A DNA stretch of 64,000 nt from a virus. A program made the position numbers and the translations under genes. Positions 1 through 50,347 of this stretch are shown piece after piece (position 1 is the first letter of the stretch; the number at the start of each line of letters is the position of its first letter). The notes below the pieces were generated by a model. The model did not search any database and was not told the DNA's origin. It worked only from the letters and a program-made list of their open reading frames with translations. Location of the stretch: the IMG/VR virus record IMGVR_UViG_3300029258_001507, positions 1-64,000 of that record; one strand, written 5' to 3'.

Positions 1-894
1 GTCTACAGTAAAATCGCCTTGGACACTGACGGATGCGTTATTCGTCGAGGTATCGAGGGTGACCGTTCCAGTGCTCGTTGCTTCTACCTCTAGAGAGTCA
101 AACGTGTAACTCCCAGCGGACAAGTCCAGTCGTTCGTTGGAGGACGACGCACCATAGACGCGCCCGGCCGATTGATACGCGCCAGTCGCCAGTATTGGGG
201 AAATAGTTTGCGCTTCGATTGCGAAGTTCGCAACATCGATGGTAGTGTTTGTACCCCTAGAAGTAAATCCTGCACCATTAAGACAGTTGGTAAGTTGAAA
301 GGTACCATCGCCGGTTATCTGGCTGTTTTCTCCCGTCACTAATAATCCGTTGTCCAGCGCGCCAGTGACCGTTTGGGGCACAGACAAAGTGGAGCCATCG
401 CCTAACGTCAAAGCATTGAACTTGCCAAAGTTACCAGAGGCTATTGGACCTATAGTCAACGTTCCGTTTGACGATACGGTGCCATCATATAGTCGCGAAA
501 ATTTCTTGGGGTACCACTCGCATGTCCCGCTAAATACGAAGGCTGCTGTACCTGATGTGAACGTGGCCACAGACAAAGCATCAAACGTTCCGTTGGTAAT
601 CGACACCGTAGACGATCCGAAATCAAACTCTCCAGCGCCGTCTAGAATAATATCCCCACCGTCGTCCATGGTGAGATTGTAGGCGGCCAGATCAAGTTTG
701 CTGGTATAGCCTGCCTCGACAGAAAGATTACCAAGCGCCCAAGCGGCGGTCAGCGTACAAGGGTTGCCGTCGCCGGCCGCGCCAAACGTGGCATCGTCGC
801 CAGTCCCGGGCACGCCCTCGGGAGACCAATTCGTAGATACAGTTGGATCGGAGGAGGTTGTCCCCAACCAGTTGTAGGCCGTCACATCGCTCAC
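1..894 (-). CDS. Beta-solenoid/adhesin-like surface protein, 3' end cut by window edge
   Basis: An open frame with codons in phase with base 1 runs from an in-frame TAG near 925 leftwards off the window, giving at least 298 residues. The likely start is GTG at 894, without a clear Shine-Dalgarno, so the start is uncertain. The protein is rich in Gly, Thr and Ser with alternating hydrophobic residues (for example GDIILDGAGEF and GTFDALSV), as in parallel beta-helix adhesins and fibres. Its N-terminal NWSPEGVPGTGDDATF resembles the W-rich NW..G.VPT.GAD segment of the next gene upstream, which suggests a related exported or virion surface protein. The exact function is unknown. Confidence 0.6.
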   Translation of the reverse strand, partial: MSDVTAYNWLGTTSSDPTVSTNWSPEGVPGTGDDATFGAAGDGNPCTLTAAWALGNLSVEAGYTSKLDLAAYNLTMDDGGDIILDGAGEFDFGSSTVSITNGTFDALSVATFTSGTAAFVFSGTCEWYPKKFSRLYDGTVSSNGTLTIGPIASGNFGKFNALTLGDGSTLSVPQTVTGALDNGLLVTGENSQITGDGTFQLTNCLNGAGFTSRGTNTTIDVANFAIEAQTISPILATGAYQSAGRVYGASSSNERLDLSAGSYTFDSLEVEATSTGTVTLDTSTNNASVSVQGDFTVD

Positions 895-994
895 CGAGGC
901 CGCATCCGCCGGCCTCTATCCGCCTCGGAAACGCCAGCAGCAACCCGGATGCAGTTGCCCTTCGGCCGCTAAGCCTAGCTGGCGTGTAGACTCC

Positions 995-1390
995 TCACGA
1001 CTTAAACAAACCGTCATCGTCCGTGGTGGTGAAATTCAGCATCCGTAACGGCCCGGACCTAAACGCTATACAACCTGTAACTATCGTAACGCTTTTCAAG
1101 TAGGCGGTACCTTCCGACGGAAGGCAGAGCCTGGTATACCGGTCTTTGCCCGGCGATATCAGCACGTCCGCGCCGTCTGTTGGCACAGTCCCACAGTCCC
1201 AATTCGTCGGGTCGTCCCACTCGTTTCCGGGCAACGGAACGTCCCACATACTCTTATTTGGGTGCGGATACGGCACCGACGGACCAATCCACCGGTGCGT
1301 GTACGGCTTCGGCGTTATCGCTGCTTTGATCGCGGAGACGGGCGTTAACACCACCGCCGCGATGCCAGCCAGAAAAGATCGTCGTTTCAT
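995..1390 (-). CDS. Small Tat-exported protein of unknown function
   Basis: 131 residues beginning MKRRSFLAGIAAVVL, a clear twin-arginine (Tat) signal with RRSFLA followed by a hydrophobic stretch and a probable cleavage site after SAIKA. The mature part holds a W-rich segment (NEWDDPTNWDCGTVPTDGAD) similar to the start of the neighbouring adhesin-like frame, so the two may be diverged members of one surface family. It lies at the distal end of the head operon, after a membrane protein and a protease. A phage protein sent through the host Tat pathway is unusual. No enzymatic motif was seen. Confidence 0.65.
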   Translation of the reverse strand: MKRRSFLAGIAAVVLTPVSAIKAAITPKPYTHRWIGPSVPYPHPNKSMWDVPLPGNEWDDPTNWDCGTVPTDGADVLISPGKDRYTRLCLPSEGTAYLKSVTIVTGCIAFRSGPLRMLNFTTTDDDGLFKS

Positions 1391-1399
1391 GGACTCACC

Positions 1400-1711
1400 T
1401 TATGTCGGCGTGGCTGGGTTGCTGTAACACCGCAAATCGGCCGAGACGAGCACTTTAGTCGTGCAATCGGCCGGCAAGACGGACGGCACCTGCCCATCGA
1501 CGGCCAACTCCGCCGCCTGAATGCCGGCGATCGCCTCGATATTTGCCTTGAGCGTCTGGTAATCGCCTCGCGTCACCGCCGGGGCAAGTGTCAGCAGGAC
1601 ACAAGCCAACTTCTGATCGGCGACCACGTCAATTTGCGAGGTCTTCCTCGCCCCCTTGTTGATCGCCTGGAATAGTTGCTCGTCGGCGGTCGGAATCGTG
1701 ATGGTTTTCAT
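1400..1711 (-). CDS. Hypothetical protein
   Basis: 103 residues with an ATG start behind a good AGGAG ribosome site (AGGAGATGCGATG). It is predicted mostly helical, with two Cys in the C-terminal third. It sits 8 bases from the membrane protein upstream and 10 bases before the Tat-signal gene, so it belongs to the same operon at the distal end of the head module. I do not recognise the family. The position suggests an accessory virion or lysis-associated role, but this is only context. Confidence 0.55.
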   Translation of the reverse strand: MKTITIPTADEQLFQAINKGARKTSQIDVVADQKLACVLLTLAPAVTRGDYQTLKANIEAIAGIQAAELAVDGQVPSVLPADCTTKVLVSADLRCYSNPATPT

Positions 1712-1719
1712 CGCATCTC

Positions 1720-2040
1720 CTAGTTAGATATCGCAACGACTGTCGCGATAGCAGCCACTGTCGTTGCTACACAAGCAGCCGACGCAATCAGGACTCCGAT
1801 CAGCTGCCATGTTGAATTAGTTCGCTTTTTCAAATCCGTTTCCACGTTGTCAATCTTCGTATCATGCACGGCCACTGTCTTGATTAGCCCAGGCTGGCCG
1901 TTTCCTCGCAACAACACAATCACCTCGTCAAGTCGCTTGTTGTTCGTGTTTGTTGCTGCAGTCAGTGTGGCAGTCTTCTCCACCTGCTCCGTAATTCGTG
2001 CGTGCAAAACATCAAAATCGCCCCTAGTGACATCACCCAT
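1720..2040 (-). CDS. XhlA-like membrane-associated protein (possible lysis accessory)
   Basis: 106 residues from the ATG at 2040, chosen because GAGGAAATTGGC precedes it. The N-terminal two thirds is a predicted amphipathic coiled coil (VEKTATL...HDTKIDNVETDLKK). The C-terminal 25 residues are one hydrophobic segment (WQLIGVLIASAACVATTVAA). This layout is that of XhlA (haemolysin XhlA) proteins, which are often encoded next to holins and endolysins. No endolysin was found beside it, so a lysis role is inference. A structural membrane adaptor is an alternative. Confidence 0.5.
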   Translation of the reverse strand: MGDVTRGDFDVLHARITEQVEKTATLTAATNTNNKRLDEVIVLLRGNGQPGLIKTVAVHDTKIDNVETDLKKRTNSTWQLIGVLIASAACVATTVAAIATVVAISN

Positions 2041-2080
2041 GCCAATTTCCTCGATAGCTGCTGAGTCTAACCAATCACGC

Positions 2081-3511
2081 CTAGTCGTCCAGTTCCTTCG
2101 CTGCCTCTGCAATGGCGTCTACGTCTCGCTGTGCGTCTTCGCTGGCTCTTGCTATCTCTGTCTTCGCCCTCGCTTCCTCTTCGGCGGCCACAGCCTTTGC
2201 TTCCCGCACTTTCGATGCCGCCGCACGAGCCGCCACGCTATGCGGCATGGGCGGCTTTGGGTCTGCCACAGCAGGCATTGGCGGTGGCTTGATTGCTGCC
2301 ATGATGTCCTGTGCAAGCGGCTCGGCAATCGGCCTGGCTTTCTCGACAGCCTTCTCAACGTCCTCTGCGGTAACTGCCCCGGTCTGCTGGTAGTTTTTCC
2401 ACAATAGATAAATAACGATTATCAGCAGAATGATCCATGGCAGCCACCGCTCCAGGGCTGTCGTCCAATGAGTCGCCGTGTTCGCCTCGTTGGTTATTGC
2501 GTTCTGCTCGATTGAAACAAGTTTCTCCTCGATGGCCTGTTTCTCCCTCTCTGATGCCTCTTCCTCCGCTTGCTTCCTCTGTTCGTCCAGCTTGGCCGCA
2601 GCACCTTCCGCCGCTTCCCTTGCCTTAGCTGCCTCCTCTTGCGCGGCCTGCACTGCTTTGGCTGCCTCCTCCTGCAAAATCGCAAACTGCGTCGAAACAA
2701 GCGTACTGTCAGCATTCGGGGTTGTTTCTGCCGGTACACCACCTGGTGCCCTGGGTGCTGCATTCGGGTCATTCTCGCTTCCGCCCAGCAAGCCGAATCG
2801 ACCTCCAAGTAACCCTCCACCAAGCTGGCCATTACCTGGACACGCATCAGCAACTAGGGATAACTCGACATCAATCAGGTCCTTCGTGAATGCCCCGAGA
2901 CTCCTCACAGTTGTCTCTACCGTGTTCGCATAGGTGCGATTGCTGCCGATGTTGGTCGTTTGCAAACACCCTATCAGTCTTCCGTCAAGCGTAAACACAG
3001 GCCCACCGGAATCACCACTGATAGAATATGGGGTTACCCCTATTCGCCCGTTCGTCGTCACGCTGACTACTTTCCCACGGTGCCAATACAGCTTCGCTGG
3101 GGATTTGCCGTATCCAGCCTTCCAAACATACTCGCCCTTTTTCGGCGTGACGCCAATTCGCACACCGCGAATACTCGCCTCAACAGGCCGCTCGATCCGC
3201 AGATAGGACGCATCAAACTCCTTCGATCTGCCAACAACTCGATATTTGTACTCACCACCGCCGAAGAAATCGACCGTGCCAGTCTGTGAATCATTTGTAA
3301 CATGGTCCGCCGTCAGAATCAGGCAGCCACCGAGATAGCACCCTGAACCCCTGCTTCCGTCCGATGCTTCCACCCTGCATATATTTGGCTGCTGATGTCT
3401 CAGCACTTCCGGCAATGCCGCCCTGGCTATTGCAGCACTCACGAACATGACCGTTACCACAATGCCAATTGTCAATAGCGTCGTGACGATATGCTTGCGT
3501 GTCAATCTCAT
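2081..3511 (-). CDS. Membrane-anchored trypsin-like serine protease with coiled coil
   Basis: 476 residues. An N-terminal hydrophobic segment (about 8-32) looks like a signal or anchor. A chymotrypsin-fold domain follows, with the His motif TADHV near residue 69, a candidate Asp in EFDASYL near 98 and the Ser motif GDSGGP near 165. A long Ala/Glu-rich coiled coil spans roughly 270-345, a single membrane helix (WLPWIILLIIVIYLLW) lies near 355, and a charged, Lys/Ala-rich tail ends the protein. The catalytic triad looks intact. It may process a virion or host envelope protein, or degrade host surface proteins. It overlaps the upstream small gene by 4 bases. Confidence 0.75.
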   Translation of the reverse strand: MRLTRKHIVTTLLTIGIVVTVMFVSAAIARAALPEVLRHQQPNICRVEASDGSRGSGCYLGGCLILTADHVTNDSQTGTVDFFGGGEYKYRVVGRSKEFDASYLRIERPVEASIRGVRIGVTPKKGEYVWKAGYGKSPAKLYWHRGKVVSVTTNGRIGVTPYSISGDSGGPVFTLDGRLIGCLQTTNIGSNRTYANTVETTVRSLGAFTKDLIDVELSLVADACPGNGQLGGGLLGGRFGLLGGSENDPNAAPRAPGGVPAETTPNADSTLVSTQFAILQEEAAKAVQAAQEEAAKAREAAEGAAAKLDEQRKQAEEEASEREKQAIEEKLVSIEQNAITNEANTATHWTTALERWLPWIILLIIVIYLLWKNYQQTGAVTAEDVEKAVEKARPIAEPLAQDIMAAIKPPPMPAVADPKPPMPHSVAARAAASKVREAKAVAAEEEARAKTEIARASEDAQRDVDAIAEAAKELDD

Positions 3512-3714
3512 AATGTCACCTTTTGCCCGTCTTCTATTCTTATCGGCAACGCTGGTGGTAGCCTAATTTCACTAATGCCGATTCTCACAAATACGCGCAG
3601 CTCGGCATTTTCAGCAATAGACAACGCCTCACGCATTGCGACCACCGCGTTTTCCAATGCGACTCTCGCATCGTACTGCTCGCTAGCCTTGTCGATAAAC
3701 TCTGTCTTGTCCAC
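3508..3714 (-). CDS. Small hypothetical protein
   Basis: 68 residues starting at GTG (3714) and ending in a 4-base overlap with the protease start, which suggests coupling between the two. The N-terminal half is a charged helix rich in Ala and Glu and the C-terminal half contains a short beta-like stretch (ELRVFVRIGISEIRLP). It is placed between the head-closure gene and the protease. I do not recognise it. The close spacing and overlap on both sides support it being real. Confidence 0.5.
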   Translation of the reverse strand: MDKTEFIDKASEQYDARVALENAVVAMREALSIAENAELRVFVRIGISEIRLPPALPIRIEDGQKVTL

Positions 3715-3719
3715 TGCTG

Positions 3720-4091
3720 CTATTCCGTAGTCGGCAATGTGTCACTTGCCCGAATCGTTTGGACCACGCGACGCATCTCTCTGCCCTTGATGTCCGGAGT
3801 AGTCCGCACCGTAACCACCTGCTTCAGGTTGGACAATGGGCTAGGCAAATCTATCATTTTTCCAAGCCAGAGAATGCTTCCGTCGGTTATGTCCCTGTCT
3901 ACGATGAGCGTCGTATCAATCGCGACCGTAACGCCCCGGTTATTCACCGTCTCGTCCCTGGTGTTGATGTGGCGGACGCTTATTTCCACGGGCGTTCCAG
4001 AAACAGTGGCAACGCCCTCATTGTCGTAATAGCCCGTAGCCTCCCAGAGAACAGCCTTCTGGTGCAAACAATCAGTCTCTACTGCCGGCAT
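3720..4091 (-). CDS. Putative head closure / neck protein
   Basis: 123 residues, mostly beta-strand by pattern, starting at an ATG that overlaps the upstream stop codon by one base. Its size, its position directly after a connector-like gene and downstream of the capsid gene, and its content match the small beta-barrel head-completion or stopper proteins of siphoviruses. No diagnostic motif is visible, so the role comes from gene order rather than from sequence identity. Confidence 0.45.
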   Translation of the reverse strand: MPAVETDCLHQKAVLWEATGYYDNEGVATVSGTPVEISVRHINTRDETVNNRGVTVAIDTTLIVDRDITDGSILWLGKMIDLPSPLSNLKQVVTVRTTPDIKGREMRRVVQTIRASDTLPTTE

Positions 4092-4504
4092 CAGTCTCTG
4101 TCCTTGTAGTCAGTTTGCTCACTGGGAGGCCGTCCGAGCCACACCCCACTAGCTTTGGGCCTTGGAGTCGAATCGAGTTGGGTCAGCGTGCCTGTAACGT
4201 CTAGTCGTTTTGCGGTCTGTCCCCACAGAGTCGAATCAAGGCCCATGTCCGTCTTGCCCTGGAATACCGCGCTTGCCCCGTCCGTTCTCTTGGAGTGGTA
4301 TTGCAAGTCGCGATGGGCGTAGAAATGCGCCGCGAGATTCTCCTCAATCTTCTTTGTCAGAGCGTCCGTTAATACACTCCCGGAATCTTGCGATACCACA
4401 TAGTCCGTCAGGGCGTTCGCCGTGTCAATAAACGGGTCCACGCTCAAATCCGGATCGGTACTGATAATCGCTCTGACTTCAGATTGTGAAGTTCTCCACG
4501 CCAT
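4091..4504 (-). CDS. Putative head-tail connector protein
   Basis: 137 residues. The N-terminal region (SEVRAIISTDPDLSVDPFID TANALTD) is helical and resembles the adaptor proteins that dock under the portal, which often begin with a short helix followed by a D-rich turn and an A/N-rich helix. The C-terminal part is polar. It lies second after the capsid gene, the usual place of the adaptor in siphovirus head operons. The assignment is by context and secondary-structure pattern. Confidence 0.5.
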   Translation of the reverse strand: MAWRTSQSEVRAIISTDPDLSVDPFIDTANALTDYVVSQDSGSVLTDALTKKIEENLAAHFYAHRDLQYHSKRTDGASAVFQGKTDMGLDSTLWGQTAKRLDVTGTLTQLDSTPRPKASGVWLGRPPSEQTDYKDRD

Positions 4505-4508
4505 CGCA

Positions 4509-4874
4509 TCATGCCTCCGCTAGGGCTTCCTGGATGGCCTGAAGAATCTCTGGCTTCCGAGTGCATCCATCAATGAGAATGCCTTCGTCAGCGGCAAATG
4601 TCTTTAATTCAGCTACGGTGAATTCCCCAAACTCTGCCAGGAATTCATCCGAAAAGGAATTGGTTGCTTCGCCCAGCTCAGCCTCTTCGCTGCTAATCAG
4701 CCGGAATTTGTCACTCCCGAATAACCGGTCAAGCGGCTTCTCGGTGACAATGATATCTTTCAGCCCAGGACGCAGCTTTCCATGTCCATCTCTCGCGCCG
4801 TAGACGGTCTTGTTTTCGCCATCGCCCTCTTCGTACTTGCCGCTCAGAATGCGGTACTGTCGCAACTTAGCCAT
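4509..4874 (-). CDS. Hypothetical protein with C-terminal HeH/SAP-like domain
   Basis: 121 residues. The last 40 residues (FTVAELKTFAADEGI, then RKPEILQAIQEAL) fit the helix-extended-helix or SAP-like fold that binds nucleic acid and is common in small phage head proteins encoded next to the capsid gene. The rest is polar and of unknown fold. It is the first gene after the capsid-associated hairpin, so its expression is probably lower than that of the capsid gene. A role in head completion or DNA contact is inference. Confidence 0.55.
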   Translation of the reverse strand: MAKLRQYRILSGKYEEGDGENKTVYGARDGHGKLRPGLKDIIVTEKPLDRLFGSDKFRLISSEEAELGEATNSFSDEFLAEFGEFTVAELKTFAADEGILIDGCTRKPEILQAIQEALAEA

Positions 4875-4910
4875 TGCTTACTCCTTGGGCCCTGTTGTCA
4901 CACGAAATAA

Positions 4911-4953
4911 GCCCCCCGGCGATGCGCAACAGGGGCACACACCGCCGGGAGGA
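4911..4953 (-). terminator. Hairpin after capsid gene (attenuator/terminator)
   Basis: Just after the capsid stop, CGCCGGG (4943-4949) pairs exactly with CCCGGCG (4915-4921), with extra GC pairs outside. On the minus strand it is followed by TTATTT. It would partly terminate transcription or protect the abundant capsid transcript. Confidence 0.55.
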
Positions 4954-4964
4954 GCCCAAGAAGA

Positions 4965-6128
4965 CTACGCAGTAGTCGCGTGCATGATGCCGCAGTTGTT
5001 GTTGTAGTCGTCGCGAATTTGCGGCACTTGGATTGCCATGACCTTATAGTTGATCTGCATTCCGCCGCGAGTCTCCCAACGCAACGTGGTTATGTCCATG
5101 CCATTGATGGCTCGTGCCACGTCGGCCGTCATCTGGACGAGAATCAGGGTAAACGTACTAGTCAGGAAATCCAGTTGTCGCACGTCGCTGATAGAGTCGA
5201 TCTTCTTCAGCCGGTCCCGAAGCGTATTGTCGCCCTTGTTCGCCGAATAATCGGCGTCCATGAATGGAGCCCAATCCGTCGAATGGTACATCATGAACGG
5301 ACCATAGAATCCGTCGTCGTTCAGCGTCTTAATCATGCCCAAGACTTCGGACACGGTCGTGGCGTTCGTGCTGACTCCCGTAGGTGTCGTTACGTCAGTC
5401 TTCGTGTTACGCGCCGGATGGGTCGTGTACCCATAGACCTTCGACGTTTGGCTGTACGCAGTGCTCACGCCATACGCATACGGCGTCACCGTGCCAATGA
5501 CCGACTTTTCGATCTGCTCAGCCACACGCCGCCCAGCGGCCTCGGCCGTGGTTGTGTCCAATGGCGAGCCCATGTTTCTCGACTGCATCAAGGTACGATG
5601 CTTGATGAAGAAATCCGCATGCGTAATCGGCAGCGGCATTCCCTCCAGCTTGTACAACGGTGCATCGTTGCGACCCTCGGTCGTGCCGTGCATGTCGACC
5701 ATCGCCTCACCCGGATCACTTTGCGTTTCGTGTTCCAGGATCGTCTTGGACATGCCATCGAATCCGCCATAGGAATTTGCACTGGCCAAATCCGTCCACG
5801 CTCGCAATCGCTGACGGGTAGCCATGACAACCGCTTCATCGAATTTGATCCACTCATCCTTACGCAAGGACGTTGCATTCGTCACGTCCATGGGAATGTC
5901 AAATCCATGATGCCGTGCATCGTTCACCGTTACCGTGCGGTATTCCGGCTTGCTCTTGCCAGTTTTGTTGTCGACAAGCTGCCGGCCCGTCTTTACCGTC
6001 ACGTACGCTTTTCCATCACGACCAACAAATGGACGCAGCAATCGCGGCTCGAACCGATATTGGTTATGGAACCGCTCGCCAACGTCGCCAACTCCCTGGC
6101 CGTTGATGATGAAATCAGATGTAAACAT
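4965..6128 (-). CDS. Major capsid protein (encapsulin/linocin-like HK97 fold)
   Basis: 387 residues. The sequence carries hallmarks of the linocin/encapsulin-type phage capsid family: RFEPRLLRPFVGRDGKAYV near the N-terminus, NATSLRKDEWIKFDEAV, RQRLRAWTDL, FDGMSKTILEHET, a PLDTTTAEAAGRRVAEQIE segment and the FYGPFMMYHSTDW motif. Capsids of this type assemble the shell of siphovirus heads without a large N-terminal delta domain. It follows two decoration paralogues and a protease/scaffold gene, the expected order for a head operon, and precedes a strong hairpin that would limit read-through into the connector genes. Confidence 0.88.
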   Translation of the reverse strand: MFTSDFIINGQGVGDVGERFHNQYRFEPRLLRPFVGRDGKAYVTVKTGRQLVDNKTGKSKPEYRTVTVNDARHHGFDIPMDVTNATSLRKDEWIKFDEAVVMATRQRLRAWTDLASANSYGGFDGMSKTILEHETQSDPGEAMVDMHGTTEGRNDAPLYKLEGMPLPITHADFFIKHRTLMQSRNMGSPLDTTTAEAAGRRVAEQIEKSVIGTVTPYAYGVSTAYSQTSKVYGYTTHPARNTKTDVTTPTGVSTNATTVSEVLGMIKTLNDDGFYGPFMMYHSTDWAPFMDADYSANKGDNTLRDRLKKIDSISDVRQLDFLTSTFTLILVQMTADVARAINGMDITTLRWETRGGMQINYKVMAIQVPQIRDDYNNNCGIMHATTA

Positions 6129-7218: not shown

Positions 7219-8733
7219 CTACTCGCCTGCTTCACCAGGCAACAGCAAGTGGTCCTCCGACGCCTGATCCATGCCAGGTCGGCCCATGTTGTCCACTGCT
7301 GACGCCCCAATAAAGTGCTGTTGCGGCGGTTCTTCCTTCGGCGCAAGCGATGCCAATACAGTCAATTCGTCGAGGCTCTTGGAATTGAGCACCTTCGCCA
7401 CCGATTCTTTCTTGTCGTCGCCGACGTTTCCAATCAGCTTCTCGACAATGGCATCTTTCTCTCGCTGCTCAAGAACCTGAGCATGGCGGAATGTGTTCTG
7501 CACGCTTTCCGGAGCCGATTCAAGCCATTCGTTTTCGGTCATTGGCTTGCTTGCTTTCTTCTCGTCCATCTCTTCCTCTGTGTTTGTCGCGTTCTCCACC
7601 GGCTCCTTCGGCACGGTAGCCCATGTTTTCTTGTCGGCGTCATACGTGTGCCGATTTCCATCCGCGTCCTCGAATCCTTCCTTTGCGGCGTTCGCAACCA
7701 AGGACTCTTCCGCGACTTTCTCGACTGCCTTGACAGCGTTGGTAAGCATCGCATCATTCAAATCCATCAGATCAGAACGATTCGTCTCGTCGTAGCAGCA
7801 AGAGTTTTCAATCAAGCTGTCGACCATCTCAAGACGTTTCTCATCACTCAGGGACATAGTGTCACCCTCCGAATTCAGCATTTTTCCGTTTACAGGCTTC
7901 CACCTGACTACCTTGATTACTTCCGTTGGCAAATCGCCAGACAGCACGACCTTTTCGCGAGTTCGCGTGTAGGGCAAAGAGAAGTATCGCTCCTTGCGAA
8001 GGAAGACCACGCGGTTCTGGAATAAGTCCTCCAGGTACACCGTGTCCAATCCGGCGCCAGTACTAAACCGATCCCGAAGCTGCTGCCTCAGCACATCCTT
8101 GATCGTGTCTATCGATAACTCGTTCCCTACTGTGGTTTTCGTGGGCCCCGCACTTGCACCACTGCCATCCTCCGCTTGTTCATTCATCAGTACCCCGCAT
8201 CCGTCCTTAATGGAACATGCTCCTACTTGGTCCGGCAGAATCGCCAGGTGATCCGGCTCGTAATTCCGCGCTATGTACGTGTAGACATCCCCTGTTGGTG
8301 TCGCGCCTGGAGCGTGCTCATTCTCGGTCATGAGCCCAGTAGATAATTCGATTGGACGGCGGTCTTGAAGCGATGTAAGAATTCGCTTGTCGACTTTGGA
8401 AGTCTGGTCGACCGCAAACCACCCTTCAGCCTTGAGGTGACCGCGACCATCGATCGAGGCGTTGCGAATGTGACCTATCCCGAATTCATCCAGGACGCCA
8501 TCCGTCTTAACAGAGACCGACTCACCGTTAACAGTCGGATGATTGACGACGAGAGGCACGCCGTTCCACGATTCGCGGCTCTTGGCTATTTCGTCCGCCG
8601 GGTAATACAGCGGACCAGCACTACCATTGAGCACGCCCGGTACAATCAGCGTTAGAGGGGCAACTAGATATTCCGTGCCGTTGTCACTGCGGAATTCGGC
8701 CTTGCCCACAAAGTTGAGTGTGAGGTTTTCCAT
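7219..8733 (-). CDS. DUF2213 head maturation protease / scaffold
   Basis: 504 residues. The N-terminal third matches the DUF2213 phage family: GPLYYPADEIAKSRESWNGV, PLVVNHPTVNGESV, GHIRNASIDGRG and ELSTGL, thought to include a prohead protease. The C-terminal 300 residues are acidic and helical (EMDEKKASKPMTENEWLES and similar), as expected of a fused scaffold. It lies upstream of the decoration and capsid genes. The inferred job is to guide capsid assembly and then cleave the scaffold. Catalytic residues cannot be assigned with certainty by eye. Confidence 0.75.
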   Translation of the reverse strand: MENLTLNFVGKAEFRSDNGTEYLVAPLTLIVPGVLNGSAGPLYYPADEIAKSRESWNGVPLVVNHPTVNGESVSVKTDGVLDEFGIGHIRNASIDGRGHLKAEGWFAVDQTSKVDKRILTSLQDRRPIELSTGLMTENEHAPGATPTGDVYTYIARNYEPDHLAILPDQVGACSIKDGCGVLMNEQAEDGSGASAGPTKTTVGNELSIDTIKDVLRQQLRDRFSTGAGLDTVYLEDLFQNRVVFLRKERYFSLPYTRTREKVVLSGDLPTEVIKVVRWKPVNGKMLNSEGDTMSLSDEKRLEMVDSLIENSCCYDETNRSDLMDLNDAMLTNAVKAVEKVAEESLVANAAKEGFEDADGNRHTYDADKKTWATVPKEPVENATNTEEEMDEKKASKPMTENEWLESAPESVQNTFRHAQVLEQREKDAIVEKLIGNVGDDKKESVAKVLNSKSLDELTVLASLAPKEEPPQQHFIGASAVDNMGRPGMDQASEDHLLLPGEAGE

Positions 8734-8801
8734 GCGCCGAAGATAAACGTGTCAGTTATCTTCAGGCAAGCAGAGTGCATGGTTTCTCACCCCTGGGGTG
8801 G

Positions 8802-9041
8802 CTACTCCCCACTAGATAGCAACCGGACCCATCGGTAGTGCGTTTTCCGATGGAAATACTCACAGACAATCGTCTGTCCGGTCCCAGCAAGATTACGCCT
8901 CGCCCTGTAGATCACGCTACGTAACGTGACGTTTGACATGTCCGGCTTTTCGAGGGCCTCGCGAATTTCGTCCTTCGTGTGAGGCAGCCCATCCGATAAT
9001 AGCTCTAGGACTATTTGTTGAGGTACTGATAGATTGGTCAT
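8802..9041 (-). CDS. Small winged-helix-like DNA-binding protein
   Basis: 79 residues starting in an ATGA overlap with the stop of the head-morphogenesis gene. The sequence (VLELLSDGLPHTKDEIREALEKPDMSNVTLRSVIYRARRNL) reads as a winged-helix or HTH fold: helix, turn, recognition helix, then a beta wing (TIVCEYFHRKTHYRWVRL). It resembles the DNA-binding part of response regulators. Its place inside the head operon is odd for a regulator. It may act late or bind DNA during packaging; this is speculation. Confidence 0.55.
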   Translation of the reverse strand: MTNLSVPQQIVLELLSDGLPHTKDEIREALEKPDMSNVTLRSVIYRARRNLAGTGQTIVCEYFHRKTHYRWVRLLSSGE

Positions 9042-11305
9042 TTCTTCCGCCCCCGTGCCGGAGAGACAAATTTCCTGGGCCGCTTCGCCGCTATTGGCGT
9101 ATCAACACCAGCCCAACTCGTCCGGCGTTTCTGCTGGGCAATCGTTCGCTTGCTGCGTTGCGGTATTTCTGCCGCCAAGGAGGCACTAATAGACTTGGCT
9201 ATCGAGGACTTACTGCGTTTCTGGCCAGACTGGTTTTCACCCACGTTGGCTGGGGTCCACGCACACCGACAGTTTGGGTGGCGCGGTATCTTGCCCCTCG
9301 CTTCCTTCAGTGTGACCACTATTCCATCAAGAGGTTTGCATAGAGTGCAGTTATGCACCAATAGGCCATTCGCGAAGAATTCCGGCTCGTCCTCAACCTG
9401 TATGTCATACACCGCTATTGCCTTTCTGGCCAGCCGATGATATAGTACGGTTATATCACTCAGGAGCGGTCGCCCATGCCATTTCAGTTTGCTTGCAGCA
9501 TATGCAACCAATCGTTCGCCAGACACACGCAGTCGCTCAAAGACGGCTGCACAAATGTATTTTGCTCTAGAGCGTGCTACTTTGAGAGCCGAAAAAATGG
9601 CGGAGACCGTGCTTGCCCAACATGCGGAAAGCTTGTCCACAGGAGTAAACGAAACACTCGCCAATTCTGCTGCAGGGAATGCTACGACGCCAGCAGGCAA
9701 AAGGTCGTCGTCACCAAGACTTGTGTCGGCTGTGGCTCCAACTTCACCATCAACAAGAGTGTTCAACACAGATACAACTACTGCTCTATCGCGTGCAAGA
9801 GGGAGCATATGGCCGGCGAATGGCGCGCGTGCCAAACATGCGGCACTCGCTTTTGGCACAAAGGCTCCGACATTGCGCGTGGACTTGACAGGAAGCATTG
9901 CTCCGAGGAATGCAGAAGACCTCCTGACTACATTAAGTGCGACACTTGTGGGAAACGCTTTCGCAGATGCCCTTCCCAGACAGACAAGCGGTTTTGCAGC
10001 CTGGCGTGCTATAGACGTTCCACTTCGGAAACAACGATAGAGCGTGATGTGCGACTTTCTCTTGATAACCTCGGCATTGAATATATCAAGGAAGCTGCCC
10101 TTGGTAGATACGCGATTGACTTTCTCTTGGAGTCCCCAAGGATAGCCCTCGAAGTCGACGGTGACTACTGGCACAGGGACCCATCCAAAGACGCAAGAAA
10201 AGATGCCTACCTCACCAGCAATGGGTGGACTGTTGTGCGAATAAGAGAGTCTGAAATCAAAAACGCTGTCGATCTTGACGCCCTCGTCTTTGAACGACTC
10301 CAACGTGTCGCCCACGGATAGTGCATCGGCCGGAATCCAGCCCTGTTTCACGCGATCCCAGAATGGATGATCTGACGTCGCCGTTACGTGATGCTTCCCG
10401 GCCGCAATGCTAACCATCTTTCCGCTATAGTCTCTCTTCGTAGCTGCAGTGACCCTCTTGTATCCTTTGCGCGTTAGTACCATCATTCCAGGACGGACAG
10501 CCTGAATGGGAATGTCGCCGTCCAGCGTCGTCACCATCGTAAACGCCGGGAAACATACCCTATCGTCTCCAGCAGTACTCCACTCAACCTGCACGCCCAC
10601 CTCTTCGACGCCTAGCCTCTCCATGGCGTCTAGCTGGCCTTCCGCGTGCGCCCGAATAATCTCGGTCCTGGCAATCAGTTCAGCTCGCCGCCTATTCCCG
10701 TTCACAATCGCTGCCATGTCCCTCGCGATCTTGCGTGGGTTGTCACCTTGCACTAATCCGTCAGTCAATGCTCTGCTTAATTTGGTCGCCAAATCACTCG
10801 TAGCACCCTTCAGGTCCGTCATCGTCCTGGCGGCCAGGGTCTTCACCTTCTCCTGTTGCACAGGCTGAGCAAAGCTAGAACGAAGGAATTCCTCCCGGGT
10901 ACCCTGATAGAAGCCAGATACGTCTTCGCCCGTTTGTAAAGCCGCCTTGCGTGTATCATCAAATGCACGACCAGCCCCCTTCCTATAGCCTTCCTCAATG
11001 TACTTTTCGAGGAATGCTTCGTCTAAATCCTCGATCTTGATCCCACGCATCTGCGTGTTGAGTTGGTCCTCCAGCCACTGGCGGAATCCCGCCAATTGCT
11101 CCGGGGTCGACTGGAATCGGAACCGCTGGTTTCCTGCCAGCAATATAGATTTCGGACCTGCCAGACCAAACGCATCCTCCCTGACGACCAAGTCAAATAG
11201 AGCCGCCTTCACCTTCCGGTATCGCCTACGAATATCCGCCTGCGCAACCCGACGCAATGTCTGCGAACGTGTTGGGTCCATCTTCACTGGATTTCTAGCT
11301 GCCAT
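9038..11305 (-). CDS. Mu gpF-like head morphogenesis protein interrupted by an intein
   Basis: 755 residues as translated. Residues 1-250 and 653-755 form the host protein: a helical N-terminal part, NRRRAELIARTEIIRAH, then D..VCTLCKPLDG and PRHPNCRCAWTP, the Cys/His signature of the phage Mu F minor head family. Residues 251-652 are an intein inserted between DDRV and the +1 Cys of CTLC. Splicing would give a protein of about 353 residues. The gene lies between portal and DUF2213 genes, the usual place of this minor head protein. Its C-terminal tail is strongly basic. Confidence 0.85.
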   Translation of the reverse strand: MAARNPVKMDPTRSQTLRRVAQADIRRRYRKVKAALFDLVVREDAFGLAGPKSILLAGNQRFRFQSTPEQLAGFRQWLEDQLNTQMRGIKIEDLDEAFLEKYIEEGYRKGAGRAFDDTRKAALQTGEDVSGFYQGTREEFLRSSFAQPVQQEKVKTLAARTMTDLKGATSDLATKLSRALTDGLVQGDNPRKIARDMAAIVNGNRRRAELIARTEIIRAHAEGQLDAMERLGVEEVGVQVEWSTAGDDRVCFPAFTMVTTLDGDIPIQAVRPGMMVLTRKGYKRVTAATKRDYSGKMVSIAAGKHHVTATSDHPFWDRVKQGWIPADALSVGDTLESFKDEGVKIDSVFDFRLSYSHNSPPIAGEVGIFSCVFGWVPVPVVTVDFEGYPWGLQEKVNRVSTKGSFLDIFNAEVIKRKSHITLYRCFRSGTSIARQAAKPLVCLGRASAKAFPTSVALNVVRRSSAFLGAMLPVKSTRNVGAFVPKASAACLARAPFAGHMLPLARDRAVVVSVLNTLVDGEVGATADTSLGDDDLLPAGVVAFPAAELASVSFTPVDKLSACWASTVSAIFSALKVARSRAKYICAAVFERLRVSGERLVAYAASKLKWHGRPLLSDITVLYHRLARKAIAVYDIQVEDEPEFFANGLLVHNCTLCKPLDGIVVTLKEARGKIPRHPNCRCAWTPANVGENQSGQKRSKSSIAKSISASLAAEIPQRSKRTIAQQKRRTSWAGVDTPIAAKRPRKFVSPARGRKK
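9418..9446 (+). promoter_or_regulatory. Promoter for antisense homing endonuclease
   Basis: TTGCCT (9418-9423) and TATAGT (9441-9446) are separated by exactly 17 bases, matching a sigma70 promoter at 4/6 and 5/6 positions. It lies inside the C-terminal intein coding region and points into the plus-strand endonuclease gene that starts at 9476. Confidence 0.55.
9476..10321 (+). CDS. Antisense homing endonuclease, zinc-finger array plus Vsr/EDxHD-like nuclease
   Basis: 281 residues on the strand opposite to the intein. Residues 1-180 hold five CxxC...CxxxC modules (CSIC/CSRAC, CPTC/CCREC, CVGC/CSIAC, CQTC/CSEEC, CDTC/CSLAC), likely zinc-binding DNA readers. The C-terminal 100 residues carry a Vsr/EDxHD or DUF559-like nuclease core: YAIDFLLESP, ALEVDGDYWHRD and GWTVVRIRESEI. 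It has its own AGGAG (9462-9466) nine bases before the ATG and a promoter upstream. It probably cuts intein-free alleles of the head gene to spread the intein. Confidence 0.85.
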   Translation: MPFQFACSICNQSFARHTQSLKDGCTNVFCSRACYFESRKNGGDRACPTCGKLVHRSKRNTRQFCCRECYDASRQKVVVTKTCVGCGSNFTINKSVQHRYNYCSIACKREHMAGEWRACQTCGTRFWHKGSDIARGLDRKHCSEECRRPPDYIKCDTCGKRFRRCPSQTDKRFCSLACYRRSTSETTIERDVRLSLDNLGIEYIKEAALGRYAIDFLLESPRIALEVDGDYWHRDPSKDARKDAYLTSNGWTVVRIRESEIKNAVDLDALVFERLQRVAHG

Positions 11306-11317
11306 GACACGCTGCCT

Positions 11318-11662
11318 TCACTCGGGATATATCGGATCGCCGTTGTGCCTGCCCCTTGATGGAATTGCCATAGGTAAATGCAACTCCTCATGCACTTCGC
11401 CTCGCTCCTCGCGATCCTTCTCGGTCCACCGGGCCTGGATTTCTGCCGTCTTCTGACGTATTTCCTCAGGCGTAGGCATGTACGCCCTAGCGTCCCCAAT
11501 TTCTTGATTGGAACGAATCACCACACCCCAGAACACTAGCCTCTCTCTCGCACGGGACGTACCGCAACGCATTAGTCGCGATATCTCCTTCAACGTGCTA
11601 CCCTGCCTGTATAGCTCGCAGAATTCCTCTCTTCGATCACGTATCGCCTTCGGTATCAACAT
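11318..11662 (-). CDS. Small HTH protein
   Basis: 114 residues from the ATG at 11662 (MLIPKAIRDRREEF), overlapping the portal stop by 26 bases. Residues 10-45 (FCELYRQGSTLKEISRLMRCGTSRARERLV) are a helix-turn-helix of the kind found in resolvase or homeodomain-like proteins. The rest is polar and helical, ending in a Pro/Gly-rich tail. The overlap with the portal and the following head gene keeps it in the head operon. Possible roles are DNA binding during packaging or a relic of a mobile element; neither is proven. Confidence 0.55.
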   Translation of the reverse strand: MLIPKAIRDRREEFCELYRQGSTLKEISRLMRCGTSRARERLVFWGVVIRSNQEIGDARAYMPTPEEIRQKTAEIQARWTEKDREERGEVHEELHLPMAIPSRGRHNGDPIYPE

Positions 11663-13145
11663 CAAACTCGCCCTCGTCTTCGGCCGGCATGACGTTCTCC
11701 AAGTAGCCCTCCGCGACATCGTCCTCTATCTCAAGCACGCCAGTGAGGAAATCCTTCGGATGGAGCAAATTCTCGCCACCGCCCTGCAGATATTTCACCA
11801 TCGATTCCGTGCGCTTCGCCGCTATGACCGCCCGTTGCTCGTCAGTCAGATTATCCATGCTCGGCCACAGAATCGTGTAGCCGTCACCCGGCTCCGATAA
11901 TACACCAAACAATATCAGCCTGTCTATCGTTGGTGAAATCACCCGAGGACTCAGGTAATCGTTCTGTCGCTTCGATAATCGTCGATTCCATGCCCGCTCA
12001 TCCTGGCCGGAAGCCAATTCCCCACGCTCCGAGCCCATGAATATCCGCTTCGGAACACCCAATCGAATACAGATCGCATCTATCTGCACCTGCAAGTGGT
12101 CCGACGGGTCCTCCACCTGTGTACGTAAGCTGTTCGCCGACATCCCCAAAAGCATGATGTATCGCTGAAGACCGTTTGCGTAGTTCTCGATCATCGTGCG
12201 CATGTCGTCGTTGTCGATATCCACATCGCCGCCGAGCTCCGGATGCGTTTCAAAGCTGATTCCAGGAAATGCCCCCTTGTAATACATCTCAGGCGAAGCA
12301 CCCAACAGCTTCCGGATATTCAACAGGTAATTGAATACCTGCAATTGCCTCGGTAGCCCAAATAGCTCACTGCTACGCAGATTGTCCGCAATGTGGATGA
12401 TGCGCGACCAATGCACATTGACTGTAGATTGCGTAGGTGACGCAGAACCGCCAGAAGAATCCAGCGTGCCGTCACCAGTCCCTACGGTAAGAGCATATTG
12501 CGTGGGCTGCCCATACCTGGAATTTGATGGGTCGGTTTCATACGCAGTAATCTGGGCCAAGTCCTCAGAAAACGCCCGGAAGAACAGGACATTGTACTCG
12601 CCCACCGGCGACGTCGGCATGTCACGCTCGAATCCCTTCACGGGCTCATGCAATGGCAATCCATCATCAATCCCGATCAAAATGACGCCATACGACCCGA
12701 TGCCGCTCAATACATCAACACGCTGAAGGTAATCCCACACTATCCCGCCGGTTTCACCCTGGTACCAGCTTGATCCAGCGATCTCCCGATTGAGCCCCTC
12801 CCAATCACGCTCGAATTCCGTGCTGGTTTGCGGGTTCGCGTCCTCGGTAACCGTCGGCGTCAATAGCCATGATTCCGAAGGGAATATCTCCACGACACGC
12901 GAAGCCACACCCTCGCGCAAATACATGTCCCGGTAATTCTGCAACGTGATTGAGTCAGTCGCAGGGTAGCCACACTCATCATTGATGCTGCGGCGAGGGT
13001 CGATGTCGTCGCTATCGTTGTAATAGCGACTAATCGAGCGTACTGCATTGGCCAGCATTCTTCGCCTACCAGTATTCTCCGTTGGCTGCGGTTCAGCCTT
13101 CTTCGTGCGCCGCACAGCCTTCTTCTTCGCTGACTTCTTTGCCAT
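11637..13145 (-). CDS. Portal protein (DUF1073-like)
   Basis: 502 residues from the ATG at 13145, preceded by AGGGCAGAAGG. After a Lys-rich start it shows the portal pattern: NYRDMYLREGVASRVVEIFP, WDYLQRVDVLSGIGSYGVIL, a long central barrel region with ARAF-like FFRAFSEDL, RIIHIADNLRSSELFGLP, and QIDAICIRLGVPKRIFMGSERGE followed by NRRLSKRQNDYLSP, which are typical of DUF1073-type portals. It directly follows the large terminase gene. It would form the dodecameric DNA gate at one capsid vertex. Confidence 0.85.
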   Translation of the reverse strand: MAKKSAKKKAVRRTKKAEPQPTENTGRRRMLANAVRSISRYYNDSDDIDPRRSINDECGYPATDSITLQNYRDMYLREGVASRVVEIFPSESWLLTPTVTEDANPQTSTEFERDWEGLNREIAGSSWYQGETGGIVWDYLQRVDVLSGIGSYGVILIGIDDGLPLHEPVKGFERDMPTSPVGEYNVLFFRAFSEDLAQITAYETDPSNSRYGQPTQYALTVGTGDGTLDSSGGSASPTQSTVNVHWSRIIHIADNLRSSELFGLPRQLQVFNYLLNIRKLLGASPEMYYKGAFPGISFETHPELGGDVDIDNDDMRTMIENYANGLQRYIMLLGMSANSLRTQVEDPSDHLQVQIDAICIRLGVPKRIFMGSERGELASGQDERAWNRRLSKRQNDYLSPRVISPTIDRLILFGVLSEPGDGYTILWPSMDNLTDEQRAVIAAKRTESMVKYLQGGGENLLHPKDFLTGVLEIEDDVAEGYLENVMPAEDEGEFDVDTEGDT

Positions 13146-43631: not shown

Positions 43632-44542
43632 TATTTCCAGTACGGGTTGTCTGGTGAAGCAGTGATGCCAGGAATGTGGGAGTAATCTCTCACATGCTCT
43701 CGGATAAATGGATAGGCGTCCCACGGGTCGGTCAGTACGAATTGCCTATCCGCAAGCGTGGCGCGCCAGTACTCTTGCAAAAACGGATTGAGCATTGCGG
43801 CAACAAACGAAAATGTGGATGCTCCACCTACGATAATGTCGCATTGCGACAGCAAGTAGAAATCCGGATACCAATCTATATCTCCAGGATTTCCGCTCTT
43901 GAGGTCCTCTCGAAGATAGTTGTAGTGTGCATATTGCTCCGATGTGTATTGCACACCCAATGATTCTGCTGTCTCTACGTGGTATCCTGTCAGTTCTGAC
44001 GCAACGGTTGGATCTTCACTGGCTACAAATAGCTTGTATCCCGTCAATCGTGGCAGATGTGTTTCCAGCCAGTTGACGTACCAACTGATCGGCGTTAGTG
44101 GAAAGATACGCCTGCCATAATCTCCTCGACGGACATGCAAGCCTATGGTAATGTCACAATCATGCAACAATCGCTTGCGTGCATCAACCAGGCGACTTTC
44201 TGTATCCAATGTCGGCCTGAACAAACCGGACAGATAGAGTTCATAACCGCCGTAAAAACTTGTGTGATATTGTCCATACCCGCGATAATCGCGATTGTCG
44301 ATATCATTCTCGTTAGGCAAGGTTGGCTGCAGCAGGCTGTTACCCGGAGTCTCGTGGTATGGCGGAAGCGTTCGTCCTATAGGCGTGTCGACAGTGCCGA
44401 ATAATGTATTCCCTATCCACGGCGGGATTTCCAAGTCCATGGAATATTTGGCAGCCCATGTCTTCAGAAATGCGTATTGCAAAAACTGATTTGCTGCTCT
44501 ACCCATGGTGCCAAATTGCGACATGGTTATTATTCGTGACAT
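43631..44542 (-). CDS. GT11-like (alpha-1,2-fucosyltransferase-type) glycosyltransferase
   Basis: 303 residues from the ATG at 44542; the start is uncertain, and an earlier TTG also exists. MGRAANQFLQYAFLKTWAAK near the N-terminus and the key motif GLHVRRGDYGRRIFPLTPIS near 165 match fucosyltransferases of family GT11, where the HxRRGD motif binds GDP-fucose. It ends the glycan operon next to a strong hairpin. It would add a deoxysugar such as fucose to a phage-made or host glycan. Confidence 0.7.
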   Translation of the reverse strand: MSRIITMSQFGTMGRAANQFLQYAFLKTWAAKYSMDLEIPPWIGNTLFGTVDTPIGRTLPPYHETPGNSLLQPTLPNENDIDNRDYRGYGQYHTSFYGGYELYLSGLFRPTLDTESRLVDARKRLLHDCDITIGLHVRRGDYGRRIFPLTPISWYVNWLETHLPRLTGYKLFVASEDPTVASELTGYHVETAESLGVQYTSEQYAHYNYLREDLKSGNPGDIDWYPDFYLLSQCDIIVGGASTFSFVAAMLNPFLQEYWRATLADRQFVLTDPWDAYPFIREHVRDYSHIPGITASPDNPYWK

Positions 44543-45351
44543 GTTGTATTCCCGCCCCAAAATATATGACTCGTGCGCCTGGAATGGTGAAACTTCGCTG
44601 CGGCCTGTTCTGTGGAAAAGTCGAGCCCGATCTCTTTAATGCATGACGCATTTCTCAGCCAATACATAGCGGCAAGGACATTGGTAGTTGCCGCTCTAGT
44701 GCAATTCCACCTGATAAATCCTCTTTCTGCATTGTCGAGCACAGAATCAACGTACGTCTGGCGTAGTACCAGTGGCAACTCCGAAATAGAATCAAGGCTT
44801 ATTGCGAGATCAGACACATTAGAGATAGTTGCATCCGTACACAACTTGACTGAATCTATTCCTACATGATGCAGATATTTCTTCTGAAGATCGCACACTT
44901 CCGGCAGGTCGTAGATAGTGTAGCTAGCTGGCTCAAGAAAATGCACTACCATGGCAGCAAGTAGCCCATATCCACCTCCTATTTCCACTACGTGCTTCCC
45001 GTGTAGAGTGCCACCCATAAATTCGCGAATGACACATACGTCTTCGAGTGTGTGTATGAGAGTATGTGATACGTGCAGCGTGCGCGTTATGTGATGCCGT
45101 CTTGGTGTTCCGACATCGTCTAATGCATGCAAGAATGCCGCATCCTCAAGTGTCGTGTGGGAATGCCTCCACAGTTCAGATAAGATCGGCTTCAATACCT
45201 TGTGCTCAACGTCCTTGTTTTCTGTGACACAGGCGATCCCTGGCATTTGGCGAAAGACCGGGAAATACACAGGATCGGACACTGCAAGCCTACAATCCTC
45301 AATAAATTGCCGATAGGTATGTTCGCCAATAAGCCAGTCTGAATTATACAT
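44530..45351 (-). CDS. Putative sugar O-methyltransferase
   Basis: 273 residues. The SAM-binding motif is HVVEIGGGYGLLAAMVVHFL near residue 120, followed by YTIYDLPEVCDLQKKYL, as in sugar methyltransferases that cap glycan chains. The N-terminal half is helical. It overlaps both neighbours slightly. It probably methylates a sugar made or added by the cassette. Confidence 0.7.
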   Translation of the reverse strand: MYNSDWLIGEHTYRQFIEDCRLAVSDPVYFPVFRQMPGIACVTENKDVEHKVLKPILSELWRHSHTTLEDAAFLHALDDVGTPRRHHITRTLHVSHTLIHTLEDVCVIREFMGGTLHGKHVVEIGGGYGLLAAMVVHFLEPASYTIYDLPEVCDLQKKYLHHVGIDSVKLCTDATISNVSDLAISLDSISELPLVLRQTYVDSVLDNAERGFIRWNCTRAATTNVLAAMYWLRNASCIKEIGLDFSTEQAAAKFHHSRRTSHIFWGGNTTCHE

Positions 45352-46153
45352 GCTGTTTCTTTATTTCTGTTTTCAGTGCCTGCAAGAGTCGCTGCCCAAG
45401 TGCCACCTTTTCAGGTGGCGACCGCAAATAGTTGCCCTCTTCGCCAGCTGCATAATAATGATCGTATTCCAGGCCAGGCACTATGCGCAACTTATTTCCA
45501 GCAAGCAACCAGAGCAAGTTGTAGACAAACGAATCATTAGCATCGAAGACTTGCTCATAGTATGTTGATTGCAAGTCCTGTTCTGACAACTCCAGCCAAT
45601 TCGGCAGTTGCCTATCTGCCCTGATGCCACGATATTGCCCAAAGACATTCAGGAATGATCGTCTAGCTACTGTCTGATTTCCAGTGTTGAAGAAGCAACA
45701 GAAAATCGGGTGTGGCACGATTTGTGATATACTAGTCAATGTATACGGAGTATCTGACGCAAGTGGCCGATAATTGAATCGCGGCCTCGCAAAACTGGCA
45801 CATAACCATACAGATTGATCGGTGGCTAATGATAGCACCTTGTCGATAAAGGTACTATCCATGCTGTTGTCTGAGTCGCACGTAATTACCCAATCGCCAG
45901 TTGCCCTGGCGATGGCTTCCAGTTTATTCCCGAAGACTCCGTAATTGTGCGGATTTCGGAAAAGAGATACTTTTGCCTGTCCTCGCAGTAAGTGTTCCAA
46001 CCCATCACAATCCTCTGAGCAGTCATCCACAACCACAATCTCATCAATACCAGGATGATTTTGCGCTGCTTTCAGGCATCTAAGTATTTTCGCGCCAGAG
46101 CCGCGCTGTGGCGACATTTCATTGTATGCAGTAATCGCAAAACTCGTACTCAT
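45344..46153 (-). CDS. Family 2 glycosyltransferase
   Basis: 269 residues. FAITAYNEMSPQRGSGAKIL at the start, IVVVDDCSEDCDG near 38 and ATGDWVITCDSDNSMDSTFI near 90 form the GT-A fold of GT2, with D.D metal site DSD. The rest includes an acceptor part with aromatic residues. It transfers a nucleotide-activated sugar within the glycan cassette. Confidence 0.85.
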   Translation of the reverse strand: MSTSFAITAYNEMSPQRGSGAKILRCLKAAQNHPGIDEIVVVDDCSEDCDGLEHLLRGQAKVSLFRNPHNYGVFGNKLEAIARATGDWVITCDSDNSMDSTFIDKVLSLATDQSVWLCASFARPRFNYRPLASDTPYTLTSISQIVPHPIFCCFFNTGNQTVARRSFLNVFGQYRGIRADRQLPNWLELSEQDLQSTYYEQVFDANDSFVYNLLWLLAGNKLRIVPGLEYDHYYAAGEEGNYLRSPPEKVALGQRLLQALKTEIKKQHV

Positions 46154-46698
46154 TTGTGTCCATGCTTCCTGAATGCCCAGCTAGGGAAGTCTTCATTCGT
46201 CACAACGTGCAATTGTGCGCCGTATTCCTCAACGAACCTATCCAATACAGGCTGCACCATAATAAAATCATCAAAGATGCAATAATCATGGCCAGTGACC
46301 CAACCGCCAGGTTTCACTTTAGGAATCCATGCCTCTAAGTCAGAACGAATCCGCAAATGATTGGCATCTAGATAGACCCAGTCTAAGCTTTCGTCCTGGA
46401 ATGTCTCGGCTACTTCAACGGAGTACCCCTTGATTATTTCCACATTCGCATGGTCTTTGAACCGTTCCCTAGTCGTTCTTTCGTTTTCGTCCTGCTGTGT
46501 TTGTGCGACGTTTGCTGGATCATGTCCATAATCCGCCACGGATTGCGTTTCCCAACAATCGATCAGATAGAGTTTTCGTGGCTTGTTAAATCGCACGATC
46601 ATGTCGGCGAAATCGCCATGCTGCACGCCAACTTCCGCCACCACGCCGCCATTAGGAAGAGTGGCCGCCATTGTGCCTCTGTCCGTCATGTCCAGCAT
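46150..46698 (-). CDS. SAM-dependent methyltransferase
   Basis: 182 residues. GGVVAEVGVQHGDFADMIVR near residue 17 is motif I, and KLYLIDCWETQ and LDWVYLDANH are further conserved parts of the Methyltransf_24-like fold. It overlaps the GT2 gene by 4 bases and touches the next gene. The acceptor is probably a sugar or peptide of the cassette; it cannot be told from sequence. Confidence 0.75.
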   Translation of the reverse strand: MLDMTDRGTMAATLPNGGVVAEVGVQHGDFADMIVRFNKPRKLYLIDCWETQSVADYGHDPANVAQTQQDENERTTRERFKDHANVEIIKGYSVEVAETFQDESLDWVYLDANHLRIRSDLEAWIPKVKPGGWVTGHDYCIFDDFIMVQPVLDRFVEEYGAQLHVVTNEDFPSWAFRKHGHK

Positions 46699-47559: not shown

Positions 47560-47561
47560 TC

Positions 47562-50304: not shown

Positions 50305-50347
50305 AGTATATCTCCTACTTCTTCCACTCCGCAAATACAATGGTCGC

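Follow-up and report, generated by a model that had tools for sequence, protein, structure and literature searches.

How can a phage head gene contain an intein that has its homing endonuclease gene on the other DNA strand, and do both genes remain intact? In canonical inteins the endonuclease, of the LAGLIDADG or HNH type, is nested in frame within the Hint domain. In the window (the whole 64,000-nucleotide stretch analysed here, from IMG/VR virus record IMGVR_UViG_3300029258_001507), the initial annotation described an intein with intact splicing blocks at Cys251 and HN/Cys653, interrupting a head gene that stays open through about 280 antisense codons. It also described a separate plus-strand gene for a Vsr/EDxHD-type endonuclease lying within the intein, and regarded the arrangement as seemingly new or very rare.

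A predicted intein with a nuclease gene on the opposite strand

The features of the locus are listed in Table 1. The head gene matched Phage_Mu_F in Pfam (8e-11) and phrog_758, head morphogenesis, in PHROG (2e-34), and in two relatives (L005 and L006) the same MuF site is empty and reads ...DDRVCQLC.. and ...DGRVCQLC.., respectively. The same ORF matched the Pfam family Intein_splicing at 8e-7, which is under Pfam's cut-off, and NCBIfam intein_Cterm over its cut-off. HMMs of the Hint N and C blocks matched the intein with E values of 9.5e-35 (the window copy being part of the training set) and 1.5e-18. Cys251 corresponds to Cys1 of the intein, block B reads T310-S-D-H313, and the intein ends in VHN, directly followed by Cys653 (VHN/C); across 12 aligned inteins Cys1, the TxxH of block B and alignment columns H406, N407 and C408 are invariant. 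Indeed, Cys1, TxxH and N/C were found in 26/26 of the antisense-bearing inteins checked. (Note that for one of these, L008, the motif scan halted at an earlier motif and the splice motifs were taken from the alignment.) AlphaFold2 modelled both the Hint N and the Hint C part of the intein with confidence and predicted residues 107-361 to be disordered; the best PDB match of the model is the gp41-1 intein (6qaz; E 2.4e-8, probability 1.00). Thus the proposed splicing blocks are present and a Hint fold is predicted around them, and by motifs and predicted fold the insert appears to be a class 1 Hint intein that would be competent to splice. No Pfam endonuclease match was found in the 755 residues of the minus frame, the nuclease match being on the plus strand, and the host gene is not fractured at this locus.

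Table 1 Features of the intein-containing head gene and the antisense nuclease gene in the window
Feature	Position	Strand	Basis or remark
MuF-like head morphogenesis gene (N-extein, intein and C-extein)	9038..11305	-	one open frame, 755 codons plus stop
N-extein, MuF residues 1-250	10556..11305	-	Pfam MuF stretch stops at residue 251
Predicted intein, 402 aa, Cys1...His-Asn/Cys+1, residues 251-652	9350..10555	-	exact mapping of splice motifs
Hint N-terminal part, ~100 aa, including block B TxxH	10256..10555	-	AlphaFold2 pLDDT mostly 80-94; HMM of N blocks
Filler: the antisense gene as read in the intein frame, predicted disordered	9488..10252	-	pLDDT <50, model residues 107-361
Hint C-terminal part, blocks F and G, ~40 aa	9350..9469	-	HMM of C blocks; NCBIfam intein_Cterm
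C-extein with CxxC/HPxCRC end of MuF	9038..9349	-	PHROG matches, residues 652-709
Antisense gene (281 codons plus stop) for a homing endonuclease with zinc ribbons and an EDxHD/Vsr-fold nuclease	9476..10321	+	sequence and predicted fold
AGGAG, likely ribosome-binding site, 9 nt upstream of nuclease ATG	9462..9466	+	sequence
Tentative promoter-like site TTGCCT-17-TATAGT, TG ahead of second hexamer	9418..9446	+	sole promoter-like match in 8700-10700; 1.2 expected by chance

The plus-strand ORF encodes CxxC ribbons followed by a nuclease domain, and matched DUF559 (6e-12) and, weakly, Vsr in Pfam. By HMM the protein matched the homing endonuclease I-Bth0305I (3r3p) with an E value of 7.6e-16. The predicted structure has a mean pLDDT of 86, and its best match is the catalytic domain of I-Bth0305I (3r3p, rank 1 in Foldseek, E 7e-6, probability 1.00), with Vsr also matched. 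Residues E189, D215, H233 and D239 do not vary among 13 relatives; of these four, only E189 and D239 align with identical residues of the 3r3p construct. Thus the separate endonuclease gene of the initial annotation is intact and conserved among homologues, and its assignment to the Vsr/EDxHD family is upheld by those homologues and by the predicted fold. Purine-rich, AGGAG-like sites also precede the starts of some of the nuclease relatives. Of the 46 long ORFs in the window, 43 run on the minus strand, which, like the chance-level promoter match (Table 1), counts against the reading that we prefer below.

The nuclease and intein frames are in exact codon-opposite register (register 0), in which only TTA, CTA or TCA in the nuclease gene stops the intein frame. 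None of the 15 Leu and 21 Ser codons of the nuclease gene is one of these three; when synonymous codons were resampled according to the phage's own codon usage, 5.5 stops were expected and the probability of none was 0.002. The intein frame is therefore open because the two frames are codon-opposite and the nuclease gene is without TTA, CTA and TCA. The long antisense-open stretch first reported is thus confirmed, there being no stop across the 755-codon frame, and when homologues were inspected for stops their frames too were unbroken. A second IMG/VR contig (L001) is identical to the window over 10,843 bp except for one base, which lies outside the locus; an assembly slip is therefore unlikely (note that both contigs may share a sample), and an assembly artefact was rejected on the strength of the second contig and the homologues.

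Zinc-ribbon relatives in viral contigs

With the window nuclease and its homologue from L004 as queries, viral contigs yielded 80 loci. At 13 distinct loci (the window and 12 further) the nuclease gene runs antisense inside a single uninterrupted frame, 699-1708 codons long, that has both Hint blocks. The frames are always in register 0, and the other two registers carry 4-21 stops. Apart from L053 (see below), the hosts of these inteins are MuF genes or portal genes fused to a MuF-like end, one of them also with a Clp protease; the nuclease starts 126 bp inside the 3' edge of the intein in four loci and near that in most others, that is, just past the Hint C part. Other layouts occur in the same family. 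At three loci the nuclease shares the strand of the host gene but is read in the +1 frame, and the intein frame is unbroken (L026:2485-5220 (+) with the nuclease at 3395-4840 (+), L039:149-2347 with 1206-2039, and L040:2893-5100 with 3893-4792), at two it is in the intein frame (L058 and L062), and at two the Hint halves are split onto separate ORFs (L028 and L076). For many zinc-ribbon relatives no Hint blocks were detected within about 4 kb, and these look free-standing.

Several individual loci are of note. The fractured MuF gene of L028 consists of a first ORF (3014-4777 (+)) in which the N-half, Hint N and the nuclease are fused, and an overlapping second (4744-5829 (+)) with Hint C and the C-half. 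Two MuF genes have, or appear to have, two inteins: that of L015 (2807-5773 (-)) apparently has one at the VC/xxC site, with an antisense nuclease, and one at an HPxC site, and that of L062 (2081-4840 (+)) has a small one without an endonuclease and another with the zinc-ribbon-family nuclease in frame. At L053:2147-6211 (-) an antisense nuclease lies in the intein of a gene that is not recognisable as MuF and has a weak prohead-protease match, so the antisense arrangement may not be limited to MuF. A contig of Streptomyces alboflavus NRRL B-2373 (NZ_JNXT01000054.1; L099), probably from a prophage of a culturable strain, encodes what seems to be the same nuclease as that of L029, which is antisense in the portal gene with the Clp protease. 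(A relative in mycobacteriophage Donovan was rejected as an intein case, the nuclease gene being located between a methylase gene and other genes; the Donovan protein had no match with the domain HMM used for the tree described below.)

Winged-helix relatives in cultured phages

In Gordonia phage Malisha, gp5 (annotated as a hypothetical protein) has an intein, and antisense within it lies an unannotated gene for a winged-helix and EDxHD-like nuclease. This nuclease matches approximately 127 records from cultured phages, mostly under genes called minor head, MuF-like, head morphogenesis or hypothetical. The strand was read in 14 of them (Malisha and thirteen further regions), and in 13/14 the nuclease gene is antisense in an intein. 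Register 0 and an uninterrupted host frame were found in Aaphi23, Fosterous, KpTDp1, vB_Pae_BR313c, AH01, 1N2-2, SaI_NFG_5577, Snoke, fEg-Eco06, vB_StyS-sam, Jersey UPWr_S1 and vB_VaM_H2. The exception among the 14 is Acinetobacter phage IME285 (L178), in which the nuclease gene is free-standing; it lies at 455-1348 (+), tail to tail with a short gene (1342-2055 (-)) at the usual MuF position.

Among viral contigs, we found 265 relatives of the winged-helix family. In 78 of the best 80, picked by nuclease similarity alone, the nuclease gene lies opposite a single unbroken intein frame that contains both Hint blocks; in the other two a single Hint block was found and the register is also open. 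After removal of redundancy, 62 loci were retained, with the Pfam MuF domain in 45/62 and an intein domain in 57/62. (Note that a single-sequence search found no other relative of the L005 nuclease; this protein was subsequently placed with the winged-helix nucleases, on a branch that is long and uncertain.) The view that the arrangement is very rare is thus not sustained: numerous viral contigs and cultured phages have it, and in the winged-helix family it is the rule.

Forbidden codons are absent from these loci as well. At 14 loci there were none, where flanking codon usage predicts approximately 41 (joint log10 P of -19). At the 62 non-redundant winged-helix loci, which are additional to those 14, there were 0 compared with 549 expected from base composition, the other registers holding 1252 and 631; since the base-composition null ignores codon bias, an exact probability for these 62 loci is not to be over-read. 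Note that two seemingly free-standing nuclease genes (L044 and L045) have no or few forbidden codons, and therefore one open register alone proves little. The apparently free-standing genes at L017:4001-4774 (+) and L045:4001-4693 (+), which have no Hint nearby and are nearly free of TTA, CTA and TCA despite a GC content of 36%, may be recent escapees from antisense inteins.

Gain and loss of inteins and a proposed mechanism

Presence of the intein is polymorphic among related phages. When the intein was removed from the Malisha extein sequence, the junction aligned without a gap to intein-free Squiddly, Spooky, Horus, Lucky10 and ODay. Malisha is 97.3% identical to Squiddly until 95 bp before the insertion and 56-69% identical thereafter; near the insertion it is closer to Lucky10 (70-88% in most windows of the comparison), and past the site the identity with Squiddly resumes at 83%, not 97%. 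This switch in the flanks has the look of co-conversion during homing, with ordinary phage mosaicism being another possible source. Snoke and fEg-Eco06, whose exteins are 89% identical, have inteins at different MuF sites, each phage being empty at the site of the other. Moreover, the inteins of Snoke and vB_StyS-sam are nearly identical while silent sites in their exteins have reached or approached saturation, which implies transfer.

Our preferred reading, to which we assign a probability of roughly 0.85, is that the phage capsid gene at this locus carries a mobile intein, with its homing endonuclease encoded by a full overlapping antisense gene between the Hint halves. During translation of the sense transcript the antisense stretch would be read through, giving a disordered loop, and the Hint halves would then associate and splice, joining the MuF exteins again. 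The EDxHD nuclease, if expressed from the other strand, would cut intein-free MuF alleles at or near the VC/xxC site, and repair of the break would copy intein and nuclease gene together. The overlap would be tolerable because, with the frames codon-opposite, avoiding TTA, CTA and TCA is sufficient to keep the intein open.

We considered whether the endonuclease is instead a passenger, that is, a free-standing homing gene with a target elsewhere that is sheltered in a splicing-competent intein and does not drive its spread. The many zinc-ribbon members without a nearby Hint block are consistent with this idea, as is a tree of 51 catalytic domains in which free-standing and nested copies are mixed; the antisense state changes at least four times in this tree, as forced by well-supported branches, and probably eight times. 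(The details of the tree are weak because only 91 columns were usable, and gain and loss are indistinguishable in it.) Against a passenger are the near-universal nesting among the best winged-helix matches, mostly in MuF, the location of the nuclease gene where the Hint fold normally has its endonuclease, and the gain and loss of inteins as whole units at fixed sites. We therefore consider a passenger unlikely.

Selection on the two frames

In pairs of Guernseyvirinae, substitutions in the exteins peak at position 3 of the capsid codons (139/236 in the N-extein of Snoke and SaI_NFG). In the overlap the peak is at capsid position 1, which is nuclease position 3 (68/125), and in Hint C it is back at capsid position 3 (6/6). 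Estimates of dN/dS in the overlap were 0.17-0.24 for the nuclease frame and 0.56-0.78 for the intein frame. Similarly, when the window and L008 were compared over the same codons, identity was 52% for the nuclease reading and 28% for the intein reading, with 111/89/173 changes by nuclease codon position. For the same-strand pair L039 and L040 the codon-position counts were 67/30/29 in the overlap and 65/61/122 in the N-extein, a pattern that supports coding in the nuclease frame. In the window's own lineage the pairs are either distant or identical, L009 and L010 being identical and uninformative. Thus in relatives the nuclease is under purifying selection, and the intein frame is selected to stay open.

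These findings bear on three further explanations. First, the antisense gene or its transcript might mainly regulate the late capsid gene by antisense interference, with the nuclease being secondary. Convergent transcription over an essential gene could interfere with it, and a like concern has been voiced for antisense homing genes in rDNA (PMC9548176). Selection here acts on the protein sequence of the nuclease, however, which a regulatory RNA does not explain, and we regard this possibility as very unlikely.

Second, the insert might be removed as RNA, by a group I or group II intron, or the halves might splice in trans, so that read-through is not needed. EDxHD enzymes are known from fractured genes, and L028 has its Hint halves in two ORFs. 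Such enzymes are also known from group I introns (PMC3943268). However, no Rfam match was found in 8700-11700, around the nuclease gene, even at E values up to 0.5, and on this basis an RNA intron was rejected; the intein blocks directly abut extein codons; and a frame kept open at every locus has no reason unless it is translated. Removal as RNA or in trans is thus slightly less probable still.

Third, and least probable of all, the plus ORF might be a relic or spurious and the intein-frame protein the conserved entity, as the recurring intein-frame motifs FHGD (winged-helix group) and MPV (zinc group) might suggest; but these motifs are not a hidden domain, being reverse complements of the nuclease catalytic strand (VAVE reads xHGD and YWH reads xPV), the intein-frame reading is predicted to be disordered, and homology, fold and the substitution pattern (changes at nuclease third positions, low dN/dS and the higher nuclease-frame identity to L008) led us to reject a spurious ORF.

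Relation to known systems

The window locus shares with canonical bifunctional inteins the predicted Hint fold, Cys1, TxxH, HN/C, a conserved host site and the endonuclease position between the Hint halves; unlike in those inteins, the endonuclease has a gene of its own on the other strand, and its stretch is predicted disordered filler in the intein. Fractured genes with split inteins, reportedly described by Dassa et al. 2009 with an endonuclease gene between the Hint halves and a link to EDxHD, are similar in endonuclease family and in the location of the gene between two Hint halves, whereas here host gene and intein form one contiguous frame and the endonuclease gene overlaps it in antisense.

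Two other systems have partial parallels. A hidden HNH endonuclease of the ShiLan type is located in an insertion in a phage methylase gene in which no splicing element was detected (PMC11855218); there too a homing endonuclease is read in a different frame from its host gene, which runs open through the insertion, but ShiLan is same-strand, HNH and without self-splicing, whereas the window has an antisense EDxHD gene and Hint blocks. In nuclear group I introns of myxomycetes, homing endonuclease genes are antisense to their splicing element and have been shown to be expressed (PMC9548176); those introns are eukaryotic, their enzymes are of the His-Cys family and, the intron RNA being untranslated, double coding is not required. 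A large intein in the capsid morphogenesis gene of Escherichia phage Snoke (Guernseyvirinae) has been announced (PMC6776784). It is one of the antisense-bearing inteins found here; announcement and record annotate the large intein and mention no endonuclease. In the open-access literature, searched without the preprint of Gosselin et al. 2025 (bioRxiv 10.1101/2025.01.02.630785), we found no report of an antisense endonuclease in an intein; that preprint, as cited in PMC11855218, concerns actinobacteriophage inteins of 'non-canonical architecture'.

We lean towards the view that inteins with overlapping endonuclease genes are a widespread and unrecognised class, with two families, repeated antisense entry and a few same-strand +1 cases (L026, L039 and L040). 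This class would comprise more than 100 full-length antiparallel double-coding cases, always codon-opposite and held open by selection on a selfish element. Because mobility and splicing are encoded by separate genes that run in opposite directions, expression of the nuclease would be uncoupled from that of the late capsid gene, and the arrangement suggests a route between free-standing, nested and fractured forms. Long antiparallel overlapping protein genes are a disputed subject, and the loci described here are a very clear set of them, with many natural replicates in which one partner has a recognisable enzyme fold and the other must only stay open. Since unannotated examples occur in cultured phages of common laboratory hosts, splicing, expression and homing are directly testable. 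Elsewhere in the window, 43634-51705 (-) is a run of minus-strand genes, one of which (48671-49573) begins like an NAD-dependent sugar epimerase.
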